Below are positions 45,369 to 62,056 of a stretch of 64,000 nucleotides of DNA, one piece after another. The notes under the pieces were generated by a model. The model did no database searches. It was not told the DNA's origin and saw only the letters and a list, made by a program, of their open reading frames with translations. A program made the translations under genes and the position numbers. The DNA comes from Chryseobacterium geocarposphaerae (GTDB lineage: Bacteria; Bacteroidota; Bacteroidia; Flavobacteriales; Weeksellaceae), in contig NZ_PGFD01000002.1 of assembly GCF_002797535.1 (NCBI RefSeq), positions 496,001 to 560,000 on the forward strand, written 5' to 3'. Within the stretch, counting starts at the first letter, position 1. The number at the start of each line of letters is the position of its first letter.

Positions 45369-45935
45369 TTAATAAATAAAGGGAATCAATCTTTTTGTTT
45401 CTTTTCTGTATTGAAGATATTCGTCGCCAAACTGTTCAATCAGAGCCTGTTCTTCTACTTTAATCCTGTAATTGAATGCTAAAAACGGAGGAATAAAAGC
45501 TACGGCAAATGAAATCCAGTTGTTCAGAAACAAACCTAGTCCTACAAAAGTCAGCAATGCAAATGTATAAGAAGGATGTCTCATGTATTTGTAAAAGCCT
45601 TCTTTCTTAATTTTATGATCTTCCTGGATACTCACATCTACCGTAAAATATTTACCTAAAGATCTGATAATGACCCATCGGAAAAGAATTCCGATTACAA
45701 TACAGCCTTCACCGAGAAAAAATATCCACTCTCCCTTGCTGATAGGAAATTTGAACATGTTTGAAATAAAAACAGCCAAAAAAATCGATGGAACAATCAC
45801 CAACCACAGAATATTTAATGTCGATTTATCTTTCTTCTTAGCGTTTTGGGTGGATGTAAATACTTTTTTGTAGTACAACTCACTTAGAAACCAAATTGCC
45901 ATCGAAATATAAAATATGACCGTAAGCTCTTTCAT
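45369..45935 (-). CDS. Isoprenylcysteine carboxyl methyltransferase (ICMT) family membrane protein
   Basis: The 188-residue protein has five or so hydrophobic segments. The C-terminal half carries FTVDVSIQEDHKIKKEGFYKYMRHPSYTFALLTFVGLGLFLNNW, the RHP-type signature of the ICMT/phospholipid methyltransferase-like family, and an EEQALIEQFGDEYLQYRKETKRLIPFIY end, with the Y...T.R..P..Y motif. Bacterial members methylate unknown substrates with SAM. It starts one base after the 2TM gene stop. Its place inside a kinase operon suggests membrane-linked signalling, but this is inference. Confidence 0.82.
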   Translation of the reverse strand: MKELTVIFYISMAIWFLSELYYKKVFTSTQNAKKKDKSTLNILWLVIVPSIFLAVFISNMFKFPISKGEWIFFLGEGCIVIGILFRWVIIRSLGKYFTVDVSIQEDHKIKKEGFYKYMRHPSYTFALLTFVGLGLFLNNWISFAVAFIPPFLAFNYRIKVEEQALIEQFGDEYLQYRKETKRLIPFIY

Positions 45936-59031: not shown

Positions 59032-59044
59032 GTTTTTTTATGTG

Positions 59045-59285
59045 CTTTTGTCTTGAAACAAAAGAACGAAAAATTCAAGACTTCGAAACTTCCACTAAAA
59101 ATTAATTCTGCTCTCTAAAAATTCTAAAACTCGCACGAATTGAAAATTGATCCTCTCTGATTCAATATTTGTCTCGCGCTCAAACAGTAGAATTTTTTTA
59201 ACGTTCACAGAATTAACTTTCTTAACGCTCCACTTTCCTAGGTCGTTAACATAATCTGTGTAAATCTGAGAAATCTGTGGGAAAT
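59045..59285. repeat. Large intergenic repeat element, left copy (inverted partner at 61733-61967)
   Basis: The 241-base element runs from CTTTTGTCTTGAAACAAAAG to AATCTGTGGGAAAT and abuts the stop codon of the radical SAM gene. Its inverse lies at 61733-61967. Long identical stretches include GCTCAAACAGTAGAATTTTT, TTTAACGTTCACAGAATTAA and CTCTAAAAATTCTAAAACTC. The end pairs with the 7225-type repeat. Together they flank the Lgt-like/radical SAM operon. Confidence 0.85.
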
Positions 59286-60689
59286 TTAAAATAAAACCCT
59301 ATCCTCTTTTCTCAATTCCTCCAAATATTTGCTTTTATCATCCCTATAGAAAAGATTCATCGTCTCAAAAGGAATTAATTTTAGATCCTTGTTTACAATA
59401 TGAACGCAGGATTTCTTTACTGCACGGACATCAAAATCATGAGCATCCATAAAGTTCATAATAATGATTCTGAACAGATTATCATAATCCAGATTCGGAG
59501 CGGAAACTTCAGGAAGACAACACAATAACTGATTTACTTTAGGCTGCACTTTATCTACAGAAATTCCGGTACTGAAAATATCTAAAAGCTGCATCTGCAA
59601 TCCCGTATCCTGTTCGTAGACAATCGTATTTCGGGTTTCATTATTCAGTAAATCAGCAGGATTGATGTATCTCGTTAAAGGAATGGTTTCACCTTCCAGT
59701 TTTAAAATATATCCCATTGCCAAAGCATCCGGATTGCAGGGAACCGGAATAATATCGTCTGAATTCAGTAAAGGAAACTGGTTCAGAATCTCCTGTCTTA
59801 CCTCCGTCAATGTAATTTTTTCATGAGCAGAATCTTCCTTGTTTCTACCTGCAATTTCAACAGGCTGGAAAGTAATTCCGCGTACGCATTTCTGTTTTAA
59901 AGCAAACTCAATGATCTTACCAATTTCGTCTATATTTTTATCTTTCTGAAGAACGATAACAAGCGTTGTAGAAAGATTTAAAGCATTTAACTTCTCCAAA
60001 GCCTTCAATCGAACATCTGTTAAATCTTTTCCTCTAAAATCCTTTAGAACTTCGGGTTTAAAAGAATCAAACTGAAGATAAATTTCAAATTCCGGAGCGT
60101 ATGTAGCTAATTTTTCTGCAAAACCCGGGTCATTGGCAATTCTTACTCCGTTTGTATTCAGCATTAAATGTTTAATCGGTTTCGACTTCGCAATATCCAT
60201 GATTTTGAAGAATTCCGGATGAATCGTCGGCTCTCCTCCACTTATCTGTACCACATCCGGTTCTCCTTCATTTTTTACAATGACATCAAACATCGCTTCA
60301 ATCTCTTCTAGGCTTCTGTGGCTTCCGTAATGTGGTGATGACATGGCATAACAAGTTGGGCAGGTAAGATTACACCGATCTGTCACTTCCACAATAGAAA
60401 GACAGCTGTGTTGCTCATGATCTACGCATAGACCGCAATCATAAGGACAACCGTATTCTACATCCGTTCCGAAATGTAAAGGCATTTCAGAAGCTTTATT
60501 GTAGTTTCTAATGTTTTTATAATAGTGAACATCCGAAGCGATTTTAGTTTTGAAAAATCCGTGATCAGGACATCTTTTCGTCATAAAAACGGCTTCATCC
60601 TCAATGATAATCTTTGCGCCTACTCTTTTCAGGCATTCAGGACAAAGACTGATCGTATAATCGTAATAGGTATAATTTCTTACCGGCAT
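59286..60689 (-). CDS. Radical SAM protein, Tes/MJ0619-like
   Basis: The protein has 467 residues. The cluster motif C106-x3-C110-x2-C113 lies in VEVTDRCNLTCPTC. Before it is an extra cysteine set (C16, C19, C40, then C81, C85, C88 and C96, as in GCPYDCGLC). This spacing of an N-terminal zinc-like set, a GCPxxCGLC block and a canonical cluster is what I know from MJ0619-type enzymes (the archaeal tetraether lipid synthase group). The C-terminal part has LLCCLPEV and KKSCVHIVNKDLKLIPF. It is the last gene of an operon with an Lgt-like gene. The reaction here is unknown. Confidence 0.78.
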   Translation of the reverse strand: MPVRNYTYYDYTISLCPECLKRVGAKIIIEDEAVFMTKRCPDHGFFKTKIASDVHYYKNIRNYNKASEMPLHFGTDVEYGCPYDCGLCVDHEQHSCLSIVEVTDRCNLTCPTCYAMSSPHYGSHRSLEEIEAMFDVIVKNEGEPDVVQISGGEPTIHPEFFKIMDIAKSKPIKHLMLNTNGVRIANDPGFAEKLATYAPEFEIYLQFDSFKPEVLKDFRGKDLTDVRLKALEKLNALNLSTTLVIVLQKDKNIDEIGKIIEFALKQKCVRGITFQPVEIAGRNKEDSAHEKITLTEVRQEILNQFPLLNSDDIIPVPCNPDALAMGYILKLEGETIPLTRYINPADLLNNETRNTIVYEQDTGLQMQLLDIFSTGISVDKVQPKVNQLLCCLPEVSAPNLDYDNLFRIIIMNFMDAHDFDVRAVKKSCVHIVNKDLKLIPFETMNLFYRDDKSKYLEELRKEDRVLF

Positions 60690-60700
60690 AATTCCTTTTT

Positions 60701-60937
60701 TTACAAGCTAAAACCACAGATACAGCCTCCAGCAATAAAAGTAAGGATTCCGATGAGGATTCCGATTAAGGGAACTTTAAAACTGTATTTTTTTCCAGTA
60801 CTCGAAGCAGACATTATTCCTAAAATGACAGCAATTAAAATTGAAATAGCAAATGTGGCGAGACCTATGCAAAGGAAAATTATTCCCATTCCGGCAAGAT
60901 CTCCTCCTCCAAGATTACCGACTTCTAATAATTTCAT
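60701..60937 (-). CDS. Small membrane protein in the Lgt-like/radical SAM operon (78 aa)
   Basis: This 78-residue protein has two long hydrophobic segments (MGIIFLCIGLATFAISILIAVILGIM and VPLIGILIGILTFIAGGCICGF) separated by SASSTGKKYSFK. It resembles small DUF4190-like membrane proteins, but not enough for a sure assignment. It overlaps the Lgt-like gene by 23 bases and is 11 bases from the radical SAM ATG. It may hold the two enzymes or a substrate at the membrane; this is a guess from position alone. Confidence 0.65.
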   Translation of the reverse strand: MKLLEVGNLGGGDLAGMGIIFLCIGLATFAISILIAVILGIMSASSTGKKYSFKVPLIGILIGILTFIAGGCICGFSL

Positions 60938-61670
60938 GTGTATTTTTTTTCAATAGATAAATATAATAAATGACCACTAATAAACATACGATTTGTATCG
61001 TACTCAAATTCAAAATGATATTAAATTTTGGTTTAATGAAATCCAGGATAAATCTGAACGAGAAATAAAAAAGCATAAAAAGCTGGAATAAAACTCCTGA
61101 TCTGTAGGCATAATTCTTTTGAAAATATTTCAAAAAAATGAAAAGAATCAATAAAAATATCATCTCATATAAGGCAACAGGATGTCTATTGATATGATCT
61201 CCCAGATTCATTCCAAATATGGAATCAGTTGGTAATCCGTATGTTTCTTCATAAATTCCTGTACAAAAACAACCTATTCTTCCTATAAACATTGCCACAA
61301 TTAATGGATAAACCATTTTATCCCCGGTGCTTTCTTTTTTACCTATCATTTTTTTCATCAATTCAACCCCAACAAGACCACCTGATAAACCTCCTACAAT
61401 GGTATTATTCAGCCAGATATATATCCATAGATTTTGAGCTTTCATTAGATCGTAAGGTCTTTCTAATGAACCAATGAAATGTGAACCAAGCAGTGCCCCA
61501 AGAGTTGCAGCAATCAGGATAAGTAATGAATTTACACTACTGAATTTCTCTTTATCTTTTCTTTTTGCAAAAGTATAATACCTCATCCCTATAAAAATCC
61601 CTAAAGATTCTGTAATGGGATGCAATAAAACCTCTTTACCCAAAATGTGAAAAGTAAACGGAAAATCCAT
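60915..61670 (-). CDS. Prolipoprotein diacylglyceryl transferase (Lgt)-like paralogue
   Basis: The 251-residue membrane protein has about seven hydrophobic segments. The Lgt signature area reads GRIGCFCTGIYEETYG at residues 130-145. Arg131 is kept, but the two Asn of canonical GRxGNFxNGE are Cys, and two residues are inserted. The TIVGGLSGG stretch (90-98) replaces the HGG of E. coli Lgt. RHPVALYE (162-169) is conserved. True Lgt moves diacylglycerol to lipoprotein cysteine. This protein may use the same lipid donor with another acceptor. It is the first gene of the three-gene operon. Confidence 0.82.
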   Translation of the reverse strand: MDFPFTFHILGKEVLLHPITESLGIFIGMRYYTFAKRKDKEKFSSVNSLLILIAATLGALLGSHFIGSLERPYDLMKAQNLWIYIWLNNTIVGGLSGGLVGVELMKKMIGKKESTGDKMVYPLIVAMFIGRIGCFCTGIYEETYGLPTDSIFGMNLGDHINRHPVALYEMIFLLILFIFLKYFQKNYAYRSGVLFQLFMLFYFSFRFILDFIKPKFNIILNLSTIQIVCLLVVIYYIYLLKKNTHEIIRSR

Positions 61671-61732: not shown

Positions 61733-61967
61733 ATTTCCCGCAGATTTTCACAAATATTCACGCGAAAATGACTTAGGAAAATGGAGTATTAAGAAAATTA
61801 ATTCTGTGAACGTTAAAAAAATTCTACTGTTTGAGCGTGAGACAACATTTGAACCGAAGAACAAATACTGAATTCACGCGAGTTTTAGAATTTTTAGAGA
61901 ACAGAATTAATTTTTAGCGAAAGTTTCCAAGTCTTGAACTTTTGTTTCTTTTGTTTCAAGACAAAAG
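61733..61967. repeat. Large intergenic repeat element, right copy (inverse of 59045-59285)
   Basis: This 235-base element is the reverse complement of the left copy, with high identity and a few insertions or deletions in the middle and near the CACGCG end. It sits in the 386-base gap between the Lgt-like gene start (61670) and guaC (62057). No coding frame was found in the gap. A promoter for the operon must lie in 61671-61732 or within the element. Confidence 0.85.
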
Positions 61968-62056
61968 AAAATTAACTCATAAATTTTATAAAATCTTTCT
62001 AAATCAAATTTCAAATCAATCTTTTTCCTAAATTTAAGTAAAATAATTTCCAAATT

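Follow-up and report, generated by a model that had tools for sequence, protein, structure and literature searches.

We analysed a 64,000-nucleotide stretch of Chryseobacterium geocarposphaerae DNA (contig NZ_PGFD01000002.1, positions 496,001-560,000), referred to here as the window; positions are given relative to it. Packed within 59286-61670 are three minus-strand open reading frames (ORFs) coding for an Lgt-like membrane transferase, a small two-helix membrane protein, and a radical S-adenosylmethionine (SAM) protein related to the tetraether synthase Tes. The first and second overlap by 23 bases and a gap of 11 bases separates the second from the third, as the initial annotation of this DNA had described. 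These three genes, called the cassette below, form one conserved unit, jointly present or absent. Its genes and features are as follows.

60915-61670, minus strand: Lgt-like membrane transferase, 251 amino acids (PF01790 match, motif alignment, structure model)
60701-60937, minus strand: two-helix small membrane protein, 78 amino acids, with a Lys/Arg loop before the last helix and the tail ...AGGCICGFSL (ORF and Cys-centered comparison)
60716-60718, minus strand: codon of C74, the conserved tail cysteine of the small protein, five from the end
59286-60689, minus strand: radical SAM protein, 467 amino acids, Tes/TrsS relative of a cassette subfamily (profiles, alignment, tree)
60561-60644, minus strand: rubredoxin/zinc-ribbon-type site of the radical SAM protein, C16, C19, C40, and H43 (domain match, alignment; Tes ligand pattern from the available part of PMC9433317)
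60417-60449, minus strand: N-terminal auxiliary cluster motif of the radical SAM protein, C81, C85, C88, and H91 (alignment; Tes pattern from the same part of PMC9433317)
60351-60374, minus strand: radical SAM CxxxCxxC motif, C106, C110, and C113 (alignment)
59736-59738, minus strand: C318 of the radical SAM protein, invariant in 27 cassette rows and present in five TrsS-type rows but not in three Tes-type rows
59517-59522, minus strand: C390-C391 pair of the radical SAM protein, kept among cassette proteins of the main Bacteroidota clade (alignment)
59406-59408, minus strand: C428 of the radical SAM protein, the only Cys retained out of four that Tes-type rows conserve in the C-terminal part

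How often the two enzymes are encoded together was surveyed in two samples that share genomes, one of 99 relatives (60 from the same genus) and one of 392 Bacteroidota genomes with at least 90% completeness. A strong match to the radical SAM protein is present in 49 of the 99 relatives (48 of the 60 same-genus genomes and G061), and the identical 49 encode the Lgt-like protein at E <= 1e-20, with none discordant. In the larger sample, 35 genomes match the radical SAM protein at E <= 1e-30, and for 31 the match reaches E <= 1e-90. Each genome of the latter group also encodes the Lgt-like protein at E <= 1e-29, and one extra genome (G114) has the Lgt-like gene alone; among the Lgt matches listed, the scores leave a gap between 7e-30 and 8e-17. 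The pair occurs together more often than expected by chance, with Fisher p values of 3.6e-45 for the 392 genomes and 7.1e-13 for the 60 same-genus genomes, both over related genomes that are not independent of each other. The four weaker radical SAM matches comprise G189, with an adjoining diverged Lgt-like gene, and G159, G393, and G478, which are Tes-type and have no Lgt-like match within the fetched stretches around them. Rare adjacency of the two genes in other genomes would have counted against the initial annotation; the Lgt-like gene usually adjoins the radical SAM gene, and the pairing also extends to the Actinomycetota.

Twelve of the 60 sampled same-genus genomes lack the pair, thus natural nulls exist. 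The nearest neighbors of the cassette are surE and an IMPDH-family gene. In 11 of the 12 cassette-less genomes surE could be matched, and at all 11 sites the IMPDH gene is close by. A tblastn search (E 1e-3) of these surE-to-IMPDH sites returned no radical SAM, Lgt-like, or small-protein match (two forms of the last), though a strongly diverged small protein could escape it. This comparison does not separate loss from original absence.

A later sample of 247 genomes from the class was searched with the Zn_ribbon_HMPTM family; 13 genomes matched, seven of them outside the earlier samples. Six of these seven code for cassette-type radical SAM proteins (769.5-810.3 bits), each with an upstream Lgt-like gene carrying the GRxGC signature. 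A small Cys-tailed membrane ORF is found at all six loci, at five by script and at L190 by reading the ORF list. At the seventh, L195, the radical SAM match reaches 114.8 bits and neither an Lgt-like match nor a small Cys-tailed ORF was found.

Chromosomal surroundings are alike in most of 80 Weeksellaceae loci, as would be expected if unrelated genes were simply held adjacent by slow rearrangement. We regard such a neutral neighborhood as hardly credible. The pair is present together with different neighbors in distant families and in the Actinomycetota, it is jointly absent within the genus, and the discordance counts contradict chance adjacency. In two genomes, G128 and G359, the Lgt-like and radical SAM genes are on different contigs, so their co-presence is not linkage alone. 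When neighbors were clustered in 22 loci, the clusters of at least four loci were the two enzymes and a LepA-like protein (four loci). The clustering gave no further constant neighbor beyond the two enzymes, the small proteins being too diverged for the method.

The initial annotation handled the 78-residue protein as incidental. It is instead a near-constant third member of the cassette with a conserved C-terminal Cys. The protein has no Pfam match at E 0.1, and its two NCBIfam matches are far under their cut-offs. We scanned 130 locus records, some of them narrow and wide copies from one and the same genome. Both enzymes are encoded in 120; seven hold the radical SAM gene only (L130 and L146 from G128, L134 as the narrow copy of G468, L152 from G359, and the Tes-type L157-L159) and three an Lgt match only (L177-L179). 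An adjoining small membrane ORF is present in 118 of the 120 two-enzyme records, the other two being contig-end records of G304. In 117 of the 118, a Cys occurs within the last 22 residues of one or more of these ORFs; in the exception, L164, the tail Cys was found in an overlapping ORF. At several loci the small proteins are tandem and divergent, with little in common but the Cys tail.

Dereplication left 42 small proteins, a tally that keeps L037 and L061, which we judged to be artefacts antisense to the IMPDH gene. All 42 have a Lys or Arg just before the last helix (at least two in 38), and 30 have none after the tail Cys. The tail has a median length of seven residues, and the consensus leading up to the Cys is approximately [GS]-x-[GSA]-x-C. 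Given the positive-inside rule and the basic residues before the last helix, the tail Cys is predicted to face outward and the basic loop to be cytoplasmic. The active site of E. coli Lgt has likewise been placed on the outer face (PMC4728403, available part).

Conservation differs among the three proteins. Over 81 Weeksellaceae sequences, mean identity is 95% for the radical SAM protein, 75% for the Lgt-like protein, and 56% for the small protein, and small-protein identity tracks that of the Lgt-like protein (Spearman 0.59) over that of the radical SAM protein (0.19). Both membrane proteins fall into the same two co-segregating types, with the window, L039, L046, L047, and L075 set apart from the rest; mean identity between the types is 0.60 for the Lgt-like and 0.30 for the small protein, with the radical SAM protein still at 0.95.

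The Lgt-like protein belongs to the LGT family by Pfam (PF01790, 84.3 bits, gathering cut-off 24.9) and scores 33.2 bits against the TIGR00544 equivalog, whose cut-off is 118.9. A second LGT gene, which has an RMGN signature, lies elsewhere in the 4.1-Mb genome and is the stronger of the two in a genome search (185.5 versus 83.8 bits). The following correspondences with the E. coli enzyme were read from the motif alignment, in which MAFFT gapped the His column. The counterparts of R143, Y235, and R239 are retained as R131, Y202, and R206. E243 is changed to Asp and R246 to Lys, C134 stands at the position of N146, and V92 replaces the His of the HGGL motif (His103). The initial annotation had noted an altered active-site signature. 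The GRxGC Cys is found in all 23 cassette Lgt-like rows; as RxGC also occurs in two Lgt-family proteins (L174, L176) of genomes with no radical SAM match, the signature is not unique to the cassette. In E. coli Lgt, H103N/Q and N146A are inactivating according to the accessible portion of PMC8689077. The structure model (mean predicted local distance difference test, pLDDT, 81.7) has seven long helices, and the GGL motif is retained.

The radical SAM gene is present in a single copy in the genome. Its product has the Pfam domains Radical_SAM and Zn_ribbon_HMPTM, with Fer4_12 below threshold and no other, and contains the CxxC...CxxH, GCPxxCGLC, and CNLTCPTC motifs noted before. Among solved structures, its best match is the tetraether synthase 7TOL (E 8.7e-61; aligned residues 11-318 and 385-453). 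The earlier assignment to the MJ0619/Tes group thus stands as far as kinship is concerned. It does not extend to membership, as the protein scores 273.8 bits against the Tes model NF045702 (cut-off 450) and most of the C-terminal Cys residues are replaced. Its highest-scoring NCBIfam model is TrsS (NF045646) with 319.5 bits, also under the cut-off of 490, and no other characterized family claimed it. By sequence, then, the protein is a relative of Tes and not a Tes. A scan of viral contigs gave one short relative, which was not used.

We aligned 27 cassette rows with five plasmid TrsS-type rows, labeled so because TrsS is their best model (335.6-352.5 bits, likewise under 490), and three Tes-type rows. 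Against the Tes cut-off of 450 bits, the Tes-type genes score 493.8 (L157, from G159), 441.9 (L158, from G393), and 432.3 (L159, from G478). The first of these, at 8864-10318 of L157, is a Tes-type gene above the curated cut-off within the Bacteroidota phylum, and its product may make membrane-spanning lipids. The Cys residues of the radical SAM motif are retained, as is the rubredoxin-type site, apart from one cassette row with Cys for H43. Bacteroidota clades retain the N-terminal cluster motif, which the Actinomycetota/G189 type does not. H94, C96, and C318 are common to cassette and TrsS-type rows and are not found in Tes-type rows; the position after C318 is Cys in TrsS-type rows and Asn, His, or Ser in cassette rows. 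The C390-C391 pair marks the main Bacteroidota clade together with haloarchaeal TrsS-type rows. Positions 322, 427, and 442 are Cys in Tes-type and TrsS-type rows and Ala, Ser, and Glu in the window protein. The conserved C-terminal Cys residues of the Tes-type rows probably correspond to cluster ligands in 7TOL. That cluster of Tes has been proposed to bind the substrate carbon, with Tyr459 and Met439 dispensable (PMC9433317, available part). An AlphaFold2 model of the window protein built with 39 close homologues has a pLDDT of 45.9, with block means of 24-37 over residues 321-450.

The short linked protein with its conserved Cys, encoded next to a radical SAM gene and at some loci as tandem divergent copies, recalls peptide maturation. 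The radical SAM protein would then modify the Cys/Gly-rich tail, for example by thioether formation, and the Lgt-like protein would lipidate the product, in a system resembling ribosomally synthesized and post-translationally modified peptides (RiPPs). However, a lipid enzyme is the best match among solved structures, far ahead of the peptide maturases SkfB (E 1.9e-4) and YydG (E 0.036). The Pfam domains listed above are the only ones found, and the tail is predicted to be outside while the radical SAM protein is presumably cytoplasmic. We consider this explanation quite unlikely.

Another alternative is a pathway for free lipids, in which the Lgt-like protein binds or exchanges phosphatidylglycerol, the radical SAM protein joins or alters the tails to give a membrane-spanning or branched free lipid, and the small protein serves as scaffold or subunit. 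As far as the accessible text of each source goes, Tes acts on free phospholipids (PMC9433317) and Mss is proposed to do so (PMC13274423). The retained counterparts of R143, Y235, and R239 fit such a role. Yet the Tes C-terminal Cys residues are replaced in the cassette protein, and the three Tes-type loci of the same phylum have no Lgt-like match in the fetched stretches. Further, the Cys tail is nearly all that tandem small proteins have in common, so they resemble a substrate more than a scaffold. A free-lipid product is unlikely. Of the two outcomes raised in the initial annotation, a modified protein lipid anchor in our judgement fits better than cross-linked lipids.

A third possibility is a redox or metal relay through the Cys residues of the three proteins, with the Lgt fold as a non-catalytic lipid-binding platform. 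This would suit the loss of His103 and Asn146 from the Lgt-like protein and the extra Cys residues of the radical SAM protein. It would not suit the retention of the R143, Y235, and R239 counterparts, and no redox family recurs among the neighbors in the 22 loci; we hold a relay to be very unlikely.

Beyond the Bacteroidota, diverged cassettes are found in Mycobacterium and Nonomuraea. Mycobacterium branderi and M. avium plasmids (L165, L166) encode, in order, an Lgt-family protein, two small Cys-tailed ORFs, and the radical SAM protein. The Nonomuraea Lgt-like gene overlaps both the radical SAM gene and the gene for a proline-rich protein whose membrane part ends in ...SAGICTGINPSLYG. Two other diverged cassettes, L154 (9883-10948) and L155 (4784-5855), have an ICMT-type methyltransferase gene and a DUF4395 gene between the radical SAM and Lgt-like genes. 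In maximum-likelihood trees, a branch with support 88/87 separates the 25 cassette radical SAM rows from the rest, and one with 99/96 does so for the 26 cassette-type Lgt rows. Both trees show the same three subclades; they include unlinked and orphan rows and several long branches, so that long-branch joins are possible, and the radical SAM branch is moderately supported.

The patchy distribution and the Mycobacterium plasmid copies would also fit an anti-phage defense cassette, and PADLOC gave weak viperin-type (pVip) matches to the radical SAM protein of 48 and 41 bits. The viperin match spans only residues 101 to about 222 (101-218 for the 48.1-bit match), a part of the generic radical SAM core, and falls short of a full-length viperin. 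Neither the Lgt-like nor the small protein has a PADLOC match at E 0.01, and the neighbors in the window are surE and the IMPDH-family gene. A defense role is highly improbable.

Repeats of about 210 bases flank the cassette in inverted orientation (59037-59247 and 61767-61975; 86-87% complementary). They belong to a family dispersed over 12 places in the genome, and among the 80 Weeksellaceae loci one was found to have them on both sides. They therefore do not delimit the cassette, and we rejected a mobile-element reading. Consensus promoter-like sites are not in excess in the sequence searched (12 versus a mean of 12.3 in shuffles). An ICMT/PEMT-type methyltransferase gene lies in the window at 45369-45935, about 13 kb from the cassette.

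We favor the explanation that the unit makes a lipid-modified small membrane protein, with the Lgt-like protein targeting the tail Cys and the radical SAM protein modifying the lipid or the tail, and we give it a probability of about 0.4. The small protein, its topology judged from the charge pattern, would keep its basic loop in the cytoplasm with the last helix ending at the Cys on the outer face. This layout would mimic the basic-hydrophobic-Cys signal of lipoproteins, but at the C terminus. There, the Lgt-like enzyme, having kept the phosphatidylglycerol-binding arginines, may move a diacylglyceryl or related lipid to the tail Cys, working with a rebuilt active site that has no His103 and a Cys for Asn146. 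The radical SAM protein, its auxiliary clusters presumably ligated differently from those of Tes, would abstract a hydrogen from the lipid tail and modify that tail by coupling, branching, or thioether formation.

Several observations weigh against this lipidation model. The HGGL His, the proposed activator of the acceptor Cys in E. coli Lgt, is absent from all 23 cassette rows, so S-lipidation would need another base or acceptor. The Cys residues that Tes-type rows have at positions 322, 427, and 442 of the radical SAM protein are replaced in L139/L155 and, apart from 322 in L138, throughout the main Bacteroidota clade; the Actinomycetota/G189 type has them. Lys or Arg follows the tail Cys in 12 of the 42 small proteins, for which the topology argument is weaker, and the motif before the Cys differs from the standard lipobox. 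The gene arrangement is also not universal. Besides the separate contigs of G128 and G359, G468 has over 2 kb between the two genes. No small Cys-tailed protein was recognized near either G128 gene, and beside the orphan cassette-type Lgt-like gene of G114 (L177) neither a radical SAM protein nor a small Cys-tailed protein was recognized.

In its fullest form, the lipidation model would amount to a type of protein lipidation not described before and shared by Bacteroidota and Actinomycetota. A mini membrane protein would be S-lipidated at its C-terminal Cys by an Lgt paralogue, and a Tes-related enzyme would then rebuild the lipid tail, giving for example a cross-linked or membrane-spanning anchor. 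That specific version is rather doubtful. If lipidation is correct, the cassette would add a post-translational lipid modification that is new and lies outside the pathway for lipoproteins; if it is not, the pairing still opens a short and testable way to work out what two orphan enzyme families do. The subfamily also suggests that a Tes relative encoded by a bacterium does not necessarily imply tetraether-type lipids, since in Bacteroidota one such subfamily occurs together with an altered Lgt and a mini protein with a Cys tail.

The open-access literature that we searched, which leaves aside most subscription journals, gave no description of the cassette. Tes and bacterial Mss are among the closest known systems; the sequence comparison covered Tes. 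Like Tes (GDGT-MAS; MJ0619, NF045702, PDB 7TOL), the cassette radical SAM protein has the rubredoxin-type CxxC...CxxH site, the radical SAM core, and C428, and the Bacteroidota members share the N-terminal cluster motif. Unlike Tes, it is under the family cut-off (273.8 versus 450 bits) with three of the four C-terminal Cys residues replaced, while the three Tes-type rows are without H94, C96, and C318 and their loci without an Lgt-like match. In the available part of PMC8941075, Zeng et al. report 456 bacterial Tes homologues, suggest that these may make membrane-spanning lipids, and put forward a hypothesis on branched glycerol dialkyl glycerol tetraethers (brGDGTs).

TrsS is the best NCBIfam model for the cassette protein, and H94, C96, and C318 are common to it and the five TrsS-type plasmid rows. 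The score is nevertheless 319.5 bits against a cut-off of 490, and a methyltransferase gene follows the radical SAM gene at all five TrsS-type plasmid loci, whereas none adjoins the window cassette. From the TrsS/TrsM naming, we take a methyltransferase to be the partner of TrsS. The TrsS-type genes are on haloarchaeal and Mycolicibacterium plasmids (L161, L162, L163, L167, L168), and the four haloarchaeal loci have DUF547/redoxin or DUF3179 genes nearby. In the portion of PMC13188914 available, TrsS appears once, in a selenoprotein table.

With Lgt itself, the cassette protein shares the LGT family, the R143, Y235, and R239 counterparts, the GGL motif, and seven long helices in the model; it differs in its equivalog score (33.2 versus 118.9), in having no HGGL His, and in the Cys at Asn146. 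The tail of the small protein resembles a lipobox signal in its basic stretch, hydrophobic helix, small residues, and Cys on the predicted outer face. In contrast to a lipobox, its Cys is C-terminal, the -1 residue is mostly Ile, Val, Thr, or Ala, and a short tail follows. Read from the sequence, with no signal-peptide program, the small protein is not lipoprotein-like by an N-terminal lipobox. The diacylglyceryl-modified RiPPs (DAG-RiPPs; ChrH/DybH systems with MNIO enzymes) are similar in being Bacteroidota peptides lipidated via the Lgt pathway, as described in the available part of PMC12636315. In that account, they differ from the cassette in using an MNIO enzyme rather than a Tes-related radical SAM protein, and in having an N-terminal secretion signal and following the ordinary lipoprotein pathway.

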